DNA of 64,000 nt from Halorubrum salsamenti (GTDB lineage: Archaea; Halobacteriota; Halobacteria; Halobacteriales; Haloferacaceae), in NCBI RefSeq assembly GCF_007671685.1, contig NZ_VCNL01000004.1, forward strand, positions 124,001 to 188,000. Direction: 5' to 3'. Shown here one piece after another: positions 56,103 through 64,000 of the stretch (its first letter is position 1; each line of letters begins with the position of its first letter). A program made the position numbers and the translations under genes. The notes below the pieces were generated by a model. The model was not told where the DNA came from. It saw nothing but the letters and a program-made list of their open reading frames with translations, and searched no databases.

Positions 56103-57332
56103 ATGGCAACCGTTGCACTCGCGTTCAGTGGGGGACTCGACACGACCGTCTGCGTGCCGCTGTTGAAAGAGGAGTACGGCTACGACGAGGTCATCGGCGT
56201 CAACGTCGACGTCGGACAGCCGACCGAGGAGTTCGACGAAGCCGAGGAGACCGCCGAGGCGCTCGGGCTCGACATCCACGTCGTCGACGCCAAAGAGGAG
56301 TTCGCTGACCTCTGTTTCGACGCGGTGAAGGCGAACGCGACGTATCAGGGCTACCCGCTCGGCACCGCCCTCGCGCGTCCCGTCATCGCCGAGGCGATCC
56401 TCGGCGTCGCCGAGGAGCAGGGCTGTGACGCCATCGCGCACGGCTGCACCGGGAAGGGGAACGACCAGCTCCGGTTCGAGGCCGTCTGGCGCGGCTCCGA
56501 CCTCGAAGTGATCGCCCCCGTGCGCGAGCTCGGGCTCACCCGCGAGTGGGAGATCGACTACGCCGCCGAGAAGGACCTGCCCGTCGAGGCCGGCGACGGC
56601 GGCGTCTGGTCGATCGACGAGAACATCTGGTCGCGCGCGGTCGAGGGCGGCGAGCTGGAGGACCCGAACTACGAGCCCCCGGAGGACATCTACGAGTGGA
56701 CCGCGGAGCCCGAGGGCGAGACCACAATCGAGATCGCCTTCGAGGAGGGCGTCCCGGTCGCGGTCGACGGCGAGGCGATGGACCCCGTCCCGCTCATCCA
56801 GCATCTGAACGAGTACGCCGGCGGCTACGGCATCGGCCGCACCGACGTGATGGAGGACCGCATGCTCGGGCTGAAGGTGCGCGAGAACTACGAGCACCCG
56901 GCCGCGACCGTCCTGCTGACGGCCCACCAGGCGCTCGAAGACCTCGTCCTCACCAAGAACGAGCGCTCGTTCAAGAAGGGGATCGAGCAGGAGTGGTCCG
57001 AGAAGGCGTACCAGGGCCTCGTCTTCGCCCCCGTCGTCGACGCGCTCGACGCGTTCGTCGACGAGACGCAGGACGTGGTGACCGGCACCGCGACCGTGAA
57101 GGTCTCCGGCGGCAACTGCCGCGTCGTCGCCCGCGACTCCGAGTACGCGGTCTACTCCGAGGAGATGGCCTCGTTCAACACCGAGGACGTGGCCGGCATC
57201 GCACAGGAGGACGCAACGGGCGTCGCGAAGTACCACGGGCTCCAGGAGCGCCTCGCCAACGACGTGAAGGAGTCGGTCTCGAAGCCCGAACTCGCGACGG
57301 ACGGAAGCGGAATCGACGACGAGTCCGAATAG
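56103..57332 (+). CDS. argG: Argininosuccinate synthase
   Basis: A 409-residue ATP-dependent ligase joining citrulline and aspartate. The pyrophosphatase P-loop is AFSGGLDTTV at residues 7-16; the family strings YPLGTALARPVIAEA and HGCTGKGNDQLRFE are present. The promoter-like gaatttaag lies about 30 bases upstream. Stop and argH start are adjacent (no gap), so it heads an argG-argH transcription unit. Confidence 0.97.
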   Translation: MATVALAFSGGLDTTVCVPLLKEEYGYDEVIGVNVDVGQPTEEFDEAEETAEALGLDIHVVDAKEEFADLCFDAVKANATYQGYPLGTALARPVIAEAILGVAEEQGCDAIAHGCTGKGNDQLRFEAVWRGSDLEVIAPVRELGLTREWEIDYAAEKDLPVEAGDGGVWSIDENIWSRAVEGGELEDPNYEPPEDIYEWTAEPEGETTIEIAFEEGVPVAVDGEAMDPVPLIQHLNEYAGGYGIGRTDVMEDRMLGLKVRENYEHPAATVLLTAHQALEDLVLTKNERSFKKGIEQEWSEKAYQGLVFAPVVDALDAFVDETQDVVTGTATVKVSGGNCRVVARDSEYAVYSEEMASFNTEDVAGIAQEDATGVAKYHGLQERLANDVKESVSKPELATDGSGIDDESE

Positions 57333-58805
57333 ATGACCGACGACGATCCCGGCACGGCCGTCCGCCGCGACCGCTTCAGCGACGGCCCCGCCCGCGAGTT
57401 CCTGTCGAGCCTCGCCGCCGACGCGGCGATCTTCGAGGCCGACCTCGCGGTCGACCGCGCGCACACGGTGATGCTCGCCGAGCAGGGGATCGTCGATAGC
57501 GCGGTCGCCGGCGAGATCCTCGCGGCGCTCGACGACGTGGAGGCCGCCGGCCACGGCGAACTGTCCGACGGCGAGGACATCCACGAGGCGATCGAGACGG
57601 CGGTCATCGACCGGATCGGGCCGGACGGCGGGCGGATGCACACCGCCCGCTCGCGCAACGACGAGGTGGCGACCTGCATCCGGTACCGCCTGCGCGAAGA
57701 CCTGCTCGCCGCGGCCGAGGCCACGGTCGCGCTCCGCGAGGCGCTCGTCGAGGTCGCGAGCGAGCACGCGGAGACGGTGATGCCCGGCTACACCCACCTC
57801 CAGCCGGCCCAGCCGACGACGGTCGCGCACTACCTGCTCTCCTACGAGGGCGGGGTCGCCCGCGACACCGAGCGCCTGCTCGACGCGTACGACCGGGTCA
57901 ACCGGTCGCCGCTCGGTGCGGCCGCCTTCGCGGGGACGCCGTTCGACATCGACCGCGACCGCACCGCCGAGCTGCTCGGTTTCGACGGGACCGTCCGGAA
58001 CTCGACGGACGCGGCCTCCTCGCGCGACTTCCTCGCGGAGGGGTCGACCGCGTGCGCGACGCTCGCGACGACGCTGTCGGGGCTCGCGGAGGACCTCGTC
58101 CTCTTCTCGAACAAGGGGTTCGTGGAGCTGTCGGACGCGTACGCCTCCACCTCCTCGATCATGCCCCAGAAGAAGAACCCCGACACGCTGGAGCTGACCC
58201 GCGGCGTCGCTGGCGACGCGATCGGCGAGGCGACGGGGACGCTGAGCCTGCTGAAGGGGCTCCCCCGCGCGTACAACCGCGACCTCCAGCGCGCCCACGC
58301 TGGCGTGTTCGAGATCGCGGACGACGTGCGCGAGGCGACCGAAGTCGCCGCGGGCGCGGTCGCGACCGCCGACTGGGACGAGGCGACGCTCGCGGACGCC
58401 GCGGGCGAGGGGTTCTCGACGGCGACCGGCGTGGCCGACCTGCTCGCGATGGGCGGGATGCCCTTCCGGACCGCTCACGAGATCGTCGCGACCGCCGCCG
58501 AGGCCGTCTCCGACGGCGACTCGCCGGCCGCCGCGGCCGCAAAAGTTGACGAAGCCACCCGAAAGGTGACGGGCGAGCCCCTCTCGGCGCACGTGAGCCG
58601 CGAGGACGTGGAGTCCGCGCTCGATCCCGCCGCCAGCGTCGCGAGCCGGGACTCCGCCGGGGGGCCTGCCCCCGACGCCGTCGCCGACGAGCTCGCGACC
58701 GCCGAGGCGGGGATCGAGGCCGACGACGCGGCGCTCGCCGACGAGCGGGAGTCGCTCGCGACGGCGGCGGCGCTGCTGGACGCGGAGGTGGACTCGTATG
58801 CGTGA
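57333..58805 (+). CDS. argH: Argininosuccinate lyase
   Basis: A 490-residue fumarase-superfamily lyase that splits argininosuccinate to arginine and fumarate, the last step of arginine synthesis. The signature SSIMPQKKNPDTLEL contains the catalytic Ser of the flexible loop; other conserved parts are TARSRNDEV and GYTHLQPAQPTTVAHY. Directly adjacent to argG. The lysW gene follows 250 bases later and has its own promoter. Confidence 0.97.
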   Translation: MTDDDPGTAVRRDRFSDGPAREFLSSLAADAAIFEADLAVDRAHTVMLAEQGIVDSAVAGEILAALDDVEAAGHGELSDGEDIHEAIETAVIDRIGPDGGRMHTARSRNDEVATCIRYRLREDLLAAAEATVALREALVEVASEHAETVMPGYTHLQPAQPTTVAHYLLSYEGGVARDTERLLDAYDRVNRSPLGAAAFAGTPFDIDRDRTAELLGFDGTVRNSTDAASSRDFLAEGSTACATLATTLSGLAEDLVLFSNKGFVELSDAYASTSSIMPQKKNPDTLELTRGVAGDAIGEATGTLSLLKGLPRAYNRDLQRAHAGVFEIADDVREATEVAAGAVATADWDEATLADAAGEGFSTATGVADLLAMGGMPFRTAHEIVATAAEAVSDGDSPAAAAAKVDEATRKVTGEPLSAHVSREDVESALDPAASVASRDSAGGPAPDAVADELATAEAGIEADDAALADERESLATAAALLDAEVDSYA

Positions 58806-59055: not shown

Positions 59056-59244
59056 ATGACGACCGACACCGATCCGGTGATGGCAGAGGATCCGATCACG
59101 GGCGAAGAGATCGAGCTTCCGGCCGACGTCGAGGTCGGCGAGATCATTGACAGCCCGGTTACCGGGACCGAGCTGGAGGTCATCTCGCTGGACCCCGTCG
59201 TGTTAGAAGAGGCTCCCGAACTCGAGGAGGACTGGGGCGAGTAG
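59056..59244 (+). CDS. lysW: LysW/ArgW-type amino-group carrier protein without zinc cysteines
   Basis: A 62-residue acidic carrier. The C-terminus EDWGE matches LysW exactly; its last Glu is the acceptor to which the substrate amino group is attached. In related archaea the N-terminal zinc finger has two CPxC pairs. Here the first pair position is EDPITG (Asp12, Thr15) and the second DSPVTG (Ser33, Thr36): all four cysteines are gone while the flanking residues (ELPADVEVGEI) are kept. It starts the argX-argC-argB-argD-argE operon. ATG 59056 is chosen; ATG 59080 is an alternative. Confidence 0.93.
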   Translation: MTTDTDPVMAEDPITGEEIELPADVEVGEIIDSPVTGTELEVISLDPVVLEEAPELEEDWGE

Positions 59245-59285: not shown

Positions 59286-60224
59286 ATGCAAGTAGGGATC
59301 CTCTACTCGCGGATCCGGAAGGACGAGAAGCTGCTGCTCGGCGAACTCCGCGAGCGCGGCCACGAGGTCACGAAGATCGACGTCCGCAAGGAGCGCTTCG
59401 GGCTGGAGTCGACCACGGCCGACGTCGGCGACCTCGATCTGGTCGTCGACCGCTGCCTGTCGACGAGCCGGTCGCTGTACGCGACCAAGTTCCTCGACAG
59501 CTACGGCGTCCCGGTGGTGAACGCCCCCGAGACGGGTGACGTCTGCGCCGACAAGGCGAAGAACTCGCTCGCGCTCGCGGAGGCCGACATCCCCACCCCG
59601 GCGACCGAGATCGCGTTCACGAAGGAGGCCGCGATGGAGGCCATCGAGGAGTTCGGCTACCCCTGCGTGCTCAAGCCCGTCGTCGGCTCGTGGGGCCGGC
59701 TGATGGCGAAGATCGACACGCGGAGCGCCGCGGAGGCGATCTTAGAGCACAAGGAGACGCTCGGCCACTACGAGCACAAGGTGTTCTACATCCAGGAGTT
59801 CGTCGACAAGCCCGGCCGCGACATCCGCGTGCTGGCGGTCGACGGCGAGCCGGTCGCCGCGATGACCCGGTCGTCCGACCACTGGCTCACGAACGCCGCG
59901 AAGGGCGGCGAGACGACATCGTTCGACCTCGACGACCGCGCGCTCGACCTGGTCGAGCGCGCCTCCGAGGCGGTCGGCGGCGGCATGCTCGGCGTCGACC
60001 TGATGGAGGTAGGAGTCGAACCGGAAGCGGACACCGGTGAGACCGGCGGCACCGGCTCCGGCGAGTACACCGTTCACGAGGTGAACCACACGGTCGAGTT
60101 CAAGGCGCTCGACTCGGCCACCGACGTCGACGTGCCCGCGAAGGTCGTCGACTGGCTGGAGGCGAAGGCGACCGCGGCGGCCGGCGACGGCGCCGCGGAC
60201 GACACCGCGGAGGCGCACACATGA
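59286..60224 (+). CDS. argX: LysW-glutamate ligase (ArgX/LysX family)
   Basis: A 312-residue ATP-grasp ligase that joins the C-terminal Glu of LysW to the amino group of glutamate (arginine route) or alpha-aminoadipate. ATP-grasp features are CVLKPVVGSWGRLMAKI, YIQEFVDKPGRDIRV and the metal region VHEVNHTVEFK. ATG 59286 (MQVGILYSR) matches the family; a GTG at 59277 is the in-frame alternative. Haloarchaea usually make lysine by another route, so arginine synthesis is likely. An extra Gly/Thr-rich loop (EADTGETGGTGSG) lies before the C-terminus. Overlaps argC by four bases. Confidence 0.94.
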   Translation: MQVGILYSRIRKDEKLLLGELRERGHEVTKIDVRKERFGLESTTADVGDLDLVVDRCLSTSRSLYATKFLDSYGVPVVNAPETGDVCADKAKNSLALAEADIPTPATEIAFTKEAAMEAIEEFGYPCVLKPVVGSWGRLMAKIDTRSAAEAILEHKETLGHYEHKVFYIQEFVDKPGRDIRVLAVDGEPVAAMTRSSDHWLTNAAKGGETTSFDLDDRALDLVERASEAVGGGMLGVDLMEVGVEPEADTGETGGTGSGEYTVHEVNHTVEFKALDSATDVDVPAKVVDWLEAKATAAAGDGAADDTAEAHT

Positions 60225-61270
60225 CCGACGAGACGTACACCGCGAGCGTCGTCGGCGGCACCGGGTTCACCGGCGGCGAGCTGTTGCGGATCCTCTCGGG
60301 CCACCCCGAGTTTGACGTTGTGCAGGCCACGTCGCGGTCGGCCGACAACATGACGGTCGGTCGCTCGCACCCGAACCTGCGCGGGCTCGACCTGCGTTTT
60401 TCGGATCCGGACGATCTGGAGTCGGTCGACGTGCTGTTCTCGGCGACGCCCCACGGCGTCTCGATGGGACAGATCGACGAGTACTTCGAGGCCGCCGACA
60501 CGGTCGTCGACCTCTCGGCGGACTTCCGCCTGCCCAAGGCGGAGCTGTACGACGAGTGGTACGACGGCCACGAGTCGCCCGAGTACTTGGGGCGCGCGGA
60601 GTACGCGCTCCCCGAGATCAACCGCGAGAACCTCCCCGGCGCCGACCTGATCGCCGGCGGCGGCTGCAACGCGACCGCGACGATGCTCGGGCTCAAGCCA
60701 CTCGTCGACGCGGGCGCGCTCGGTCCGGACACGGGCGAGGTCGTCGTCGACGTGAAGGTGGGTTCCTCGGAGGGCGGCGCCGGCGGCGGCGCGGCCTCCT
60801 CGCACCCGGAGCGGTCGGGCGTCGTGCGCCCGTACGCGCCCACCGGCCACCGCCACGAGGCGGAGATCGAGGCGTACCTCGGGCTCGACGTTTCCTTCAC
60901 CGTTCACGCGGTCGAGATGGTCCGCGGCGCGAGCGCGACCTGCCACGTCTTCCCCGACGAGCCCGTCTCGAAGGCGGACCTGTGGCAGGCGTACCGCGGC
61001 GCCTACGCCGACGAGCCGTTCATGCGGATCGTCTCCGGCGGGGGCGGCGTCTACCGCTACCCCGAGCCGAAGGCGGTCGCCGGCACCAACCACGGCGAGG
61101 TCGGCTTCGAGCTCGACCCCGGGAACCGGCGTATCGTCGTCTTCTCGGCGATAGACAACATGATGAAAGGCTCCGCCGGACAGGCGGTCCACGCGGCGAA
61201 CGTCGCCCTCGGGCTGCCGGAGGAATCCGGTCTGGAGTTCCAGGGGCTCCACCCCGTGGGGTCGCCATGA
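60221..61270 (+). CDS. argC: [LysW]-glutamyl-phosphate/semialdehyde reductase (N-acetyl-gamma-glutamyl-phosphate reductase family)
   Basis: A 349-residue NADPH enzyme reducing the carrier-bound glutamyl phosphate to the semialdehyde. The Rossmann GGTGFTGGELLR is near residue 7 and the catalytic Cys is in GGGCNATATML near residue 149. The C-terminus has HGEVGFELDPGNRRIVV and NMMKGSAGQAVHAAN. Translationally coupled to argX and argB by four-base overlaps. A glycine-rich insert (EGGAGGGAASSH) differs from acetyl-type ArgC proteins. Confidence 0.96.
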   Translation: MTDETYTASVVGGTGFTGGELLRILSGHPEFDVVQATSRSADNMTVGRSHPNLRGLDLRFSDPDDLESVDVLFSATPHGVSMGQIDEYFEAADTVVDLSADFRLPKAELYDEWYDGHESPEYLGRAEYALPEINRENLPGADLIAGGGCNATATMLGLKPLVDAGALGPDTGEVVVDVKVGSSEGGAGGGAASSHPERSGVVRPYAPTGHRHEAEIEAYLGLDVSFTVHAVEMVRGASATCHVFPDEPVSKADLWQAYRGAYADEPFMRIVSGGGGVYRYPEPKAVAGTNHGEVGFELDPGNRRIVVFSAIDNMMKGSAGQAVHAANVALGLPEESGLEFQGLHPVGSP

Positions 61271-62181
61271 CGGGGGAGCGCGACGCGACCGCGGACAGCG
61301 GCGCACCCGCAGACGAGCCCCCGGTCGTCGTCAAGATCGGCGGCGCGAAGGCGGTCGACCCGGCCGGCGCGGTCGGCGACGTGGCACACCTCGCCGCCAA
61401 CGGACGGCAGGTCGTCGTCGTCCACGGCGGCTCCACGGTCGTCGACGAGGTTATCGAGCGGCTCGGCATGGATCCCGAGTACGTCGAGTCCGCCTCCGGC
61501 GTCACCGGTCGGTTCACCGACGCGGAGACGATGGAGGCGTTCACGATGGCGATGGCCGGCAAGCTCAACACCGAGCTGACGGCGCAGTTCCGCGAGGCCG
61601 GCGTCGACGCGGTCGGCCTCTCCGGCGTCGACGGCGGGCTCCTCTCGGGGCCGCGCAAGTCGGCGGTCCGCGTGGTCGAGGACGGCAAGAGGAAGATCCG
61701 CCGCGGCGAGCACTCCGGCCGGATCGAGTCGGTGAACGCCGACCTCCTCTCCGGCCTGCTCGCCGACGGCTACACCCCCGTCGTCTCGCCGCCCATGGAG
61801 GGGAAAGAGGGAGACGGCGGCGTCACTCCGGTCAACACCGACGCGGACCGGGCGGCCGCCGCGGTCGCCGGCGCGGTCGGTGCCGACCTCGTCCTGCTGA
61901 CGGACGTGTCCGGCGTGTACGCGGACCCCGACGACCCCGACACGCTGATCGAGTCGGCGGCGACGCCCGGCGAACTCGACGCGGTCGAGGACGCCGCCGA
62001 GGGGTTCATGGGCAAGAAGGTGATGGCCGCCAAAGAGGCGCTCTCTGGCGGATCCGGCCGCGTCGTCGTCGCCGACGCCAACGTCCGCGATCCGATCGTC
62101 GCCGCGCTCGGGGGCGAGGGGACGACGATCGAACGCTCCGCGATTGCGGAACAGGCCGAAACGGAGGGCGAGACCGCATGA
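61267..62181 (+). CDS. argB: [LysW]-glutamate kinase (acetylglutamate kinase family)
   Basis: A 304-residue amino acid kinase that phosphorylates the LysW-bound glutamate. The kinase signature VVKIGGAKAVDP and VVVHGGSTVVDEV are near the N-terminus; VNTDADRAAAAVAGAVGADLVLLTDVSG marks the C-terminal half. In LysW systems this enzyme replaces ArgB acting on acetylglutamate. Overlaps argC and argD by four bases each, fixing the operon order. Confidence 0.96.
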   Translation: MTGERDATADSGAPADEPPVVVKIGGAKAVDPAGAVGDVAHLAANGRQVVVVHGGSTVVDEVIERLGMDPEYVESASGVTGRFTDAETMEAFTMAMAGKLNTELTAQFREAGVDAVGLSGVDGGLLSGPRKSAVRVVEDGKRKIRRGEHSGRIESVNADLLSGLLADGYTPVVSPPMEGKEGDGGVTPVNTDADRAAAAVAGAVGADLVLLTDVSGVYADPDDPDTLIESAATPGELDAVEDAAEGFMGKKVMAAKEALSGGSGRVVVADANVRDPIVAALGGEGTTIERSAIAEQAETEGETA

Positions 62182-63305
62182 GCGGCTTCGTCTTCTCCGA
62201 GAAGCCGATCGAGATCGCCTCGGGCGACGGCGTGACCCTCACCGGCACGAACGGGAGCGAGTACCTCGACTTCGGCGCGAGCTACGCGTGTACGCCGGTC
62301 GGTCACTGCCACCCCGAGGTCGTCGACGCCGCGACGAGCCAGCTGGAGGAGCTCATGTACGTGCAGGCGTCGTACCCGCACGCGGCGCGGACGGCGCTGT
62401 ACGAACGGCTCTCCGAGGCCGGACCGGGCGACGTCGACGAGGTCTGGCTCTGTAACTCCGGCACCGAGGCCAACGAGGCCGCGCTGAAGTTCGCCCGGCA
62501 CGCGACCGGCCGCGAGAAGATAATCGCGACGACGCAGGGGTTCCACGGCCGGACGATGGGCGCGCTCGCGACCACGTGGAAGCAGAAGTACAAGCAGGGG
62601 TTCGAGCCGCTCGCCGGCGGCGTCGAGTTCGTCGAGTACGGCGACGTCGACGCGATGCGAGAGGCGGTCGACGACGAGACCGCCGCGGTGATCTTGGAGC
62701 CCTTGCAGGGGGAAGGCGGGATCAACCCCGCCGCCACCGAGTACCTGCAGGCGGTCCGGGAGGCGACGGAGGAGACGGGGGCCGCGATGGTCCTCGACGA
62801 GATCCAGACCGGACTCGGCCGTACCGGGTCGCTGTGGGCCGCCGAGCGCCACGGCGTGGTGCCCGACGTGCTCACGACCGCGAAGGGGCTCGCCAGCGGG
62901 CTCCCGATCGGCGCGACGCTCTGTCGCGACTGGATCGCCGAGGACGCCGGCAACCACGGCTCGACGTTCTCCGGCGGGCCCGTCGTCTCCGCGGCCGCGG
63001 GAGCGACCCTCGACGTGATCGAGCGCGAGGACCTCCCCGCACACGCCGCCGAGATGGGCGAGTACATCCGCGGGCAGATCGAGGAGCGCCTCGGCGACGA
63101 CGTTCGCGACGTGCGCGGCGACGGCCTGATGATCGGCATCGAGGTGAAGCGCGGCTCGAACCGCCTGCTGCGCGATCTGGCGATCGAGCACCAGGTGCTC
63201 GCGCTGCCGGCGGGCCGCACCGTGTTGCGCCTGCTCCCGCCGCTGACGATCGAGCGCGAGCACGCCGACGCGGTGGTCGACGCGCTCGCCGAGGTGATCG
63301 GGTGA
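62178..63305 (+). CDS. argD: [LysW]-ornithine aminotransferase (class III aminotransferase)
   Basis: A 375-residue PLP-dependent aminotransferase that converts the LysW-bound semialdehyde to LysW-ornithine using glutamate. The PLP lysine is in TTAKGLASGLPIG; the family string GTEANEAALKFAR and MVLDEIQTGLGRTG are clear. Its stop is overlapped by the argE start. Part of the argX-to-argE carrier pathway. Confidence 0.96.
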   Translation: MSGFVFSEKPIEIASGDGVTLTGTNGSEYLDFGASYACTPVGHCHPEVVDAATSQLEELMYVQASYPHAARTALYERLSEAGPGDVDEVWLCNSGTEANEAALKFARHATGREKIIATTQGFHGRTMGALATTWKQKYKQGFEPLAGGVEFVEYGDVDAMREAVDDETAAVILEPLQGEGGINPAATEYLQAVREATEETGAAMVLDEIQTGLGRTGSLWAAERHGVVPDVLTTAKGLASGLPIGATLCRDWIAEDAGNHGSTFSGGPVVSAAAGATLDVIEREDLPAHAAEMGEYIRGQIEERLGDDVRDVRGDGLMIGIEVKRGSNRLLRDLAIEHQVLALPAGRTVLRLLPPLTIEREHADAVVDALAEVIG

Positions 63306-64000
63306 TGTCGACCGGCAAGGAGCGCGAATCGGACGCGACCGACGCGGACGATTCGGCGACCGGGTCGACCGCCGCCGACGACTCGTCGGCGCCCGGGACC
63401 GACGTGGTCGCGGGCGGCGGCTACCCCGAGGCCTGCGACACGCCGGCCCGGAAGCTGCTGTACGACATGGTCTCCATCCCCTCGCCCTCGGGCGAGGAGG
63501 AGCAGGCCGCGAAGCGCCTCGTCGACTTCTTCGAGGCCAACGGTCGGGAGGCGTGGATCGACGAGGTCGGTAACGTCCGCGCGCCCGCCAGCGACGCCGT
63601 CCTGCTGACCTCGCACGTCGACACCGTTCCGGGCGACATCCCGGTCGAGGTGAAGCCGGCGGACGAGGACGACGCGGTCGGCGAGCCGGGCGAGCCCGTC
63701 CTCTGGGGGCGCGGGACCGTGGACGCCACCGGTCCCCTCGTCGCGATGGCGGTCGCGGCGGTCAAAACGGGCGTCTCGTTCGTCGGCGTCGCCGGCGAGG
63801 AGACGAACTCGCGGGGCGCCCGGTTCCTCGTCGAGGACCGCGACGCGCCCGAGTCCGTGGTGAACGGGGAGCCCTCCGGCTGGGACGGCGTCACCCTCGG
63901 CTACCGCGGCTTCCTCGCGGGGACGTACGTGAACACGAGCGAGTCCGGTCACACCTCGCGCCCGGAGCCGAACGCGATCCAGCACGCGATCGACTGGTGG
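63305..64000 (+). CDS. argE: [LysW]-ornithine hydrolase, M20 peptidase family (partial, 3' end outside window)
   Basis: Open to the last base (232 codons visible). An Asp/Ser/Thr-rich N-terminus of about 40 residues is followed by the M20 metallopeptidase core: SHVDTVPGDIP (metal His and Asp), WGRGTVDATGPL (second metal Asp), GVAGEETNSRGA (catalytic Glu pair). It releases ornithine from LysW for conversion to arginine by ArgF (likely downstream), ArgG and ArgH. Its ATG overlaps the argD stop by one base. Confidence 0.95.
   Translation, partial: MSTGKERESDATDADDSATGSTAADDSSAPGTDVVAGGGYPEACDTPARKLLYDMVSIPSPSGEEEQAAKRLVDFFEANGREAWIDEVGNVRAPASDAVLLTSHVDTVPGDIPVEVKPADEDDAVGEPGEPVLWGRGTVDATGPLVAMAVAAVKTGVSFVGVAGEETNSRGARFLVEDRDAPESVVNGEPSGWDGVTLGYRGFLAGTYVNTSESGHTSRPEPNAIQHAIDWW

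Follow-up and report, generated by a model that had tools for sequence, protein, structure and literature searches.

The window, that is, the whole stretch of 64,000 nucleotides of Halorubrum salsamenti DNA that was analysed, encodes at 59056-59244 an amino-group carrier protein of the LysW/ArgW type that is devoid of cysteine. LysW carriers are described as binding zinc. The cysteine-free protein is probably (with a probability of about 0.7) the sole carrier of a LysW-type arginine pathway, and the lineage to which it belongs would have replaced the zinc form singly and in place in several haloarchaeal lineages. This reading builds on the sequence of ArgW, the distribution of its forms, their two-state pattern and the finding that argW and the genes beside it do not share one history. 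The novelty lies in the observations that cysteine-free ArgW forms one lineage and that argW and its operon neighbours have different histories. No description of a cysteine-free LysW was found in the open-licence PubMed Central literature.

The features assigned in the arg region of the window were as follows.

56103-57332, plus strand: argG (NF010392, 656.8 bits against 512)
57333-58805, plus strand: argH (TIGR00838, 457.7 bits against 279.5)
59056-59244, plus strand: argW/lysW, cysteine-free amino-group carrier protein of 62 aa (reading frame, family scores, alignment; single copy in the genome)
59089-59103, plus strand: former zinc knuckle 1, D12-P-I-T-G16 (alignment with solved LysW sequences; conservation)
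59152-59166, plus strand: former zinc knuckle 2, S33-P-V-T-G37 (alignment with solved LysW sequences; conservation)
59227-59241, plus strand: C-terminal EDWGE of ArgW, its last Glu being the attachment point by homology (conservation; E54 of NgArgW)
59286-60224, alternative start GTG 59277, plus strand: argX, ATP-grasp ligase (TIGR02144, 286.5 bits against a cut-off of 275.6)
60221-61270, plus strand: argC, LysY-like reductase (TIGR01850, 342.5 bits against 233.6)
61267-62181, plus strand: argB, LysZ-like kinase (reading frame; named by its place in the operon and by tblastn matches in other arg operons)
62178-63305, plus strand: argD, LysJ-like aminotransferase (TIGR00707, 414.7 bits against 410.05)
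63302-64000, cut by the end of the window, plus strand: argE, LysK-like hydrolase, start GTG 63302 or ATG 63305 (NF003367)

The residues of the window ArgW are MTTDTDPVMAEDPITGEEIELPADVEVGEIIDSPVTGTELEVISLDPVVLEEAPELEEDWGE. The frame, the coordinates and the residues all agree with the earlier note, which had reported from the letters alone that the four cysteines were lost and that D-P-I-T and S-P-V-T stood in their place; the C-terminal EDWGE, described there as intact, is complete. The former zinc knuckles read DPITG and SPVTG, with D12, T15, S33 and T36 as the aligned partners of the cysteines of Thermococcus kodakarensis LysW. The protein passed the cut-offs of TIGR01206 lysW (65.0 bits against 53.2) and of Pfam Zn_ribbon_LysW, PF21344 (50.4 bits against 27), and scored below that of NF041070, a stricter model of archaeal LysW/ArgW (46.9 against 75). 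The NF041070 cut-off was also failed by a four-cysteine (Cys4) ArgW of Halapricum (68.5). Since none of the four ligands that define a zinc-ribbon LysW (four Cys, or three Cys and one His) is present, the window ArgW was filed as a zinc-less variant and not as a zinc-ribbon LysW.

The described LysW/ArgW carriers (TIGR01206; PDB 5k2m, 3wwl, 3vpb) share with the window protein its length, predicted fold, acidic sequence and EDWGE tail, and are encoded in the same operon with LysX/LysY/LysZ/LysJ/LysK-type enzymes; they differ in the zinc knuckles, which DPITG and SPVTG replace in the window. The LysW of Sulfolobus tokodaii, bound by ArgX in the crystal (3vpb, the title of which lists Zn), has three Cys, and in the alignment a His stands close to its second knuckle. 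NgArgW of Natrinema gari is likewise a haloarchaeal arginine carrier needed in vivo, but it keeps four cysteines and is zinc-binding in its authors' view (PMC10433800).

In the window argW is encoded together with an ArgX-type ligase and the downstream enzymes. The earlier note placed it in an overlapping operon, and this holds for argX/argC/argB/argD/argE; argW itself overlaps neither neighbour, lying 250 bp after argH and 41 bp before the ATG of argX. The part of argE that is present had the [LysW]-lysine hydrolase NF003367 as its best NCBIfam match (E 2.5e-80) and remained below the full-length cut-off (270.5 against 363 bits) because the gene is cut by the end of the window. The GSWGR motif is found in the window ArgX and in 205 of 210 ArgX sequences. 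ArgX was found near 211 of 219 argW loci and, wherever argW is in the operon, both of its forms lie just before argX.

Among the best 80 of 290 loci matched by a cysteine-free query, 78 were cysteine-free and two had cysteines; the former came from Halorubrum, Haloferax, Halobellus, Haloquadratum, Halogeometricum, Salinigranum, Halalkalicoccus, some Natronomonas, Halovenus and others. Since this sample leans towards the query, 391 genomes sampled from the class were searched with DNA patterns for the cysteine-free and the four-cysteine form. A check on 219 loci (147 cysteine-free, 72 Cys4) showed no misassignment by these patterns, and the reversed control of the cysteine-free pattern gave no match in the 391 genomes. 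The mapping of the lineages that keep the cysteines, suggested in the earlier note, was thereby obtained: the four-cysteine form is present in 295 of the 391 genomes and the cysteine-free form in 93 (48 of 345 without the window's own genus). A profile search detected ArgW in 387 of these genomes and no match in four. Only one genome of the 387, G166, has both forms, so that 295+93-1 accounts for every genome with ArgW and none is left for forms with one to three cysteines. A set of 220 argW loci, gathered largely with the cysteine-free query and containing duplicates (the window's gene three times), comprised 148 loci with no Cys, 72 with four or more and none between.

The 93 cysteine-free genomes are spread over 11 of 86 genera. 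Of the genomes drawn, they include 45 of 46 in the window's genus, 12 of 13 in genus g2 (one without match), all 15 in g6 (Haloferax by sequence), both in g16, all three in g19, both in g23 and all seven in family f9. Two genera are mixed: g37, Natronomonas by sequence, has five cysteine-free and five Cys4 genomes among 11, with one lacking a match, and g56, Halovenus by sequence, has one cysteine-free and five Cys4 genomes. G166 completes the count of 93. Within the genus Halorubrum an ArgW match was obtained in 51 of 52 genomes, G040 (84% complete) being the one without; 50 of these proteins are 89-100% identical to that of the window and one, from G041, is 54% identical and has four cysteines. 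A tblastn search (E 1e-3) for the cysteine-free argW gave no match in 72,556 plasmid and 50,697 phage records; on viral contigs 51 stretches came up as candidates, and not one was confirmed. A search for a donor covered 294 genomes sampled across the phylum and matched 52, each of them a member of the window's own class.

In some genomes argW was found in an unusual setting. The Cys4 argW of G166 is in the arg operon (L224:8122-8307) and its cysteine-free argW stands alone (L225:6291-6452), with no match to argG/H/X/C/B/D in the surrounding 17 kb, between two genes that resemble photolyases by eye. The sole ArgW of G121 (L226), G053 (L227) and G093 (L228) is a Cys4 form that does not adjoin argX; the best match to argX stands either on a different contig or at a distance of 16 kb or 1.3 Mb. 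An isolated Cys4 argW of the CPECGADVALHDD type without adjoining argX is present in G111 (L169), G199 (L171) and Halapricum (L081), the first two having an operonic copy besides. G082 (L173 and L194) and G245 (L211 and L219) each have two Cys4 argW genes, every one followed by its own argX-like gene, although one of the matches in G245 runs over a stop codon. Unusual Cys4 proteins (CPVC...WEVERGEI) are encoded in the small-genome families f5 and f11 (L182, L198, L209, L218), whose ArgX sequences are the most distant on the ArgX tree. The ArgX of a record titled Halobellus captivus ZY8 (L024) falls inside Halorubrum, unlike that of Halobellus captivus ZY21 (L061), and the record is possibly mislabelled. 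Four search results were rejected as ArgW: L220 (G046) and L222 (G045) of Halorubrum are other small zinc-ribbon proteins of the CPECGAEVEV type, L221 (G051) is an unrelated frame containing CPECG, and L223 (G214, genus g69) is a weak match with no clear protein.

The history of argW was compared with that of its operon in 147 loci (82 cysteine-free, 65 Cys4) thinned from 210 ArgX sequences. The ArgX tree, obtained by a quick search with 20 of its 144 inner branches strongly supported and 68 under 80, requires nine changes of ArgW form, two of which are forced by strongly supported branches. Gathering the cysteine-free loci into a single ArgX clade costs 122 log-likelihood units and was rejected (AU p 0.003). 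The ArgC and ArgH trees, built by a fast method from 141 and 139 loci, require 11 and 17 changes, respectively. The ArgW tree from which the four cysteine columns had been removed requires one change, with a support of 74 for the dividing branch; on this tree, which has 47 columns and two strongly supported branches only, one cysteine-free clade was not rejected (p 0.81).

The same mismatch was visible in the DNA. In Natronomonas the identity across forms was 0.79 in the upstream stretch, which is mainly argH (0.81 and 0.80 within forms), and 0.83 in argX (0.85 and 0.85 within), but 0.67 in argW (0.88 and 0.85 within). In Halorubrum, with one Cys4 genome, the corresponding values were 0.83 against 0.84 for the upstream stretch, 0.85 against 0.85 for argX and 0.57 against 0.90 for argW. 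Flanks equally similar across forms around an argW that is not were thus found in two of the three genera tested; in the Halovenus-like group, where the two cysteine-free rows are identical, identity across forms was 0.73 in argH, 0.68 in argX and 0.58 in argW. Scanned in 60-base windows, identity recovers within about 130 bases of the end of argW in both Natronomonas and Halorubrum; the upstream edge of the dip is not sharp, the intergenic DNA being poorly conserved. With three Cys4 loci in the Halorubrum comparison several argH windows were also lower across forms. At the protein level G041 and the window are 92% identical in ArgG, 85% in ArgH, 81% in ArgX, 88% in ArgC, 83% in ArgB and 69% in ArgD, and 52% in ArgW. 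The discordance of the ArgW and ArgX trees, together with the dip in identity at argW in two genera, points to a probable exchange of argW by itself within an otherwise conserved operon. G166 perhaps represents a stage before or after such an exchange.

The relation to LysW proteins outside the class also bears on the origin of the cysteine-free form. At the non-cysteine sites the cysteine-free proteins are on average 66% identical to T. kodakarensis LysW and the haloarchaeal Cys4 proteins 47%, the latter mean setting apart four deep-branching sequences that are themselves 57-65% identical to it; Thermus thermophilus LysW is about equally close to both (56% for cysteine-free, 57% for Cys4). 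Closeness to Thermococcus and an operon whose other genes seem to have a different history argue against a simple local loss of cysteines.

Two old paralogues, one with zinc and one zinc-free, might instead have been present in an early haloarchaeon and sorted by differential loss, with no need of transfer. The closeness to Thermococcus LysW is what an old lineage could show, G166 still has both forms, and some other genera have a second copy of the Cys4 gene. On the other hand, both forms occupy the same place before argX, both are kept in only one of 387 genomes, and their coexistence within g37 and g56 would require two copies until recently, which makes this explanation a rather unlikely one.

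Independent loss of the cysteines in each lineage, followed by convergence under the same selection, is much less probable still. The scatter of the cysteine-free lineages over the ArgX tree would agree with it, and convergence is cheap in such a short protein. However, once the four columns are left out, a single branch still sets all 82 cysteine-free rows apart, the majority residue differs at about a dozen further positions, and no genome or locus has one to three cysteines.

The sequences standing in place of the zinc knuckles vary within narrow limits, and this regularity, like the recurrence of the cysteine-free DNA pattern with its empty reversed control, far exceeds what chance would give. 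In 56 distinct cysteine-free cores of 51 residues the first knuckle never departs from [DE]-P-[LIVM]-[TSA]-G, nor the second from [SN]-P-[VAI]-[TS]-G, while 69 distinct Cys4 cores have C-x-[EVQT]-C and C-x-x-C at the same positions. Residue 22 is P in 56 of 56 cysteine-free cores, and H in 54 and P in four of the 69 Cys4 cores; it is one of the positions at which the two sets differ. The constancy of the knuckles and these further differences indicate that the former zinc site is a fixed alternative and not a product of random decay. D59-W-G-E62 is invariant in all 56 and 69 cores, and E58 is Q once, among Cys4. Distinct cysteine-free cores have a mean identity of 0.855 over the 47 non-cysteine columns, whereas only 0.53-0.70 of the codons of shared residues match between genus-level groups, so selection on cysteine-free ArgW looks purifying.

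That the window argW is dead or serves in another role, with the true carrier elsewhere, is hardly credible. The hallmark motif is absent from it and G166 has a cysteine-free copy outside the operon; against this stand an intact attachment tail, strong conservation and the adjoining argX. Moreover, neither the single protein nor a profile including four-cysteine forms found a second LysW, a possibility raised in the earlier note for a cysteine-containing copy, at E values up to 10 in the window's genome (3.67 Mb, 99.96% complete). A sequencing or assembly error, the other doubt raised there, is refuted and may be dismissed, as close relatives also lack the cysteines and identical knuckle residues recur in many separately sequenced genomes.

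Several published data bear on the function of the carrier. Deletion of argW or the E54A substitution makes Natrinema gari, whose NgArgW is a Cys4 form, dependent on arginine (PMC10433800), and insertions in argB, argC and argD do so in Haloferax volcanii (PMC4300041), which identifies the arg operon as the arginine pathway of the latter. HVO_0047, the ArgW of H. volcanii, is reported to be 61% identical to TK0279 (PMC8305020). Three cysteine-free Haloferax ArgWs are 60% and one Cys4 ArgW is 53% identical to TK0279; since the published value fits the former better and all 15 genomes of g6 are cysteine-free, H. volcanii itself very probably has the cysteine-free form. As Haloferax needs its arg operon for arginine and has this form, cysteine-free ArgW probably works in vivo. 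The pathway enzymes of haloarchaea are reported to keep basic active-site surroundings, which would suit an acidic carrier (PMC3402447); the net charge of the cysteine-free cores is about -18 on average.

At seven ArgX positions compared between sister groups the residues follow the lineage and not the form of ArgW. Some ArgX residues looked associated with the ArgW form when all lineages were pooled: among the rows listed, residue 218 is R in 78% of the partners of cysteine-free and 11% of those of Cys4 ArgW. In Natronomonas of both forms, however, it is E, with one D. No ArgX residue tracking the ArgW form was found, the independent-pairs test having two pairs on strongly supported branches, and this suggests that ArgX accepts both carrier forms.

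Under the preferred reading, replacement in place by a cysteine-free lineage, the pathway would proceed as follows. By homology, ArgX would link glutamate through its amino group to the terminal Glu of ArgW, at that residue's side chain, a role assigned to this Glu after E54 of NgArgW (PMC10433800); ArgB, ArgC and ArgD would convert the ArgW-bound intermediate and ArgE would free ornithine. The LysW fold and the acidic surface are presumably kept without zinc, each zinc knuckle being replaced by a D/S-P-aliphatic-T-G turn. In zinc's stead, this turn would be held by its Pro and its aliphatic residue together with side-chain hydrogen bonds from Asp/Ser and Thr. Judging from the residues present, metal binding by D/T/S/T at the former site is unlikely because only one charged ligand is available. 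The knuckles of the Cys4 LysW of Thermococcus are CPVCG twice, with Pro and an aliphatic residue present too, so these residues may be inherited and not compensatory, and part of the cysteine-free pattern is probably old.

AlphaFold2, run with 32 aligned sequences, gave the cysteine-free ArgW four strands and a mean pLDDT of 85.9, with values of 91-93 in the block means of residues 11-50. A Cys4 control model, A3 (12 sequences), reached a pLDDT of 86.9 with only two strands called, and strand counts were therefore set aside. Foldseek ranked LysW chains first to sixth among its PDB matches, at modest scores (E values of 5e-3 to 6e-2, none under 1e-3). The five best matches by VIA were also LysW (Z 3.2-4.0, rmsd 1.7-2.1 over 38-40 residues), tied with the unrelated ZitP zinc finger (Z 3.1), and no Z reached 5. 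The LysW fold of cysteine-free ArgW is a prediction, made by a network whose training data include LysW structures. A zinc-finger fold standing without zinc is reported for Ros-family members and for three zinc-free C(P)XCG proteins of H. volcanii; these are other proteins with other jobs, and the H. volcanii examples keep their cysteines (PMC11241148).

The earlier note's observation is thus confirmed and its interpretation borne out in part. A working carrier without zinc ligands is well supported, and it presumably contains no zinc. Stabilization by high salt, suggested there, is not supported as the cause and is rejected as a sufficient one, since Cys4 forms are commoner in the class and both forms occur within g37 and g56.

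Cysteine-free ArgW would then be one stable lineage that displaces the zinc form in place as a lone gene, the direction and means of such an exchange being presumed. In a bolder version, for and against which the odds seem about even, haloarchaea have two interchangeable carriers, and the zinc-free one, derived from an old Thermococcus-like lineage, moves as a lone gene of less than 200 bases into vertically inherited operons with its partners unchanged. If this is true, a structural metal is optional in an essential carrier, and its loss perhaps spares zinc or removes an oxidation-prone site; as causes of the spread, zinc economy and escape from thiol oxidation are no more than ideas. Roughly one in four of the haloarchaeal genomes sampled (93 of 391) has a carrier without a zinc ligand, and close relatives that differ in argW alone provide a natural experiment on the role of structural zinc. 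Single-gene exchange, with the operon conserved around it, would also indicate the freedom with which a carrier may be replaced although every partner has to recognise it.
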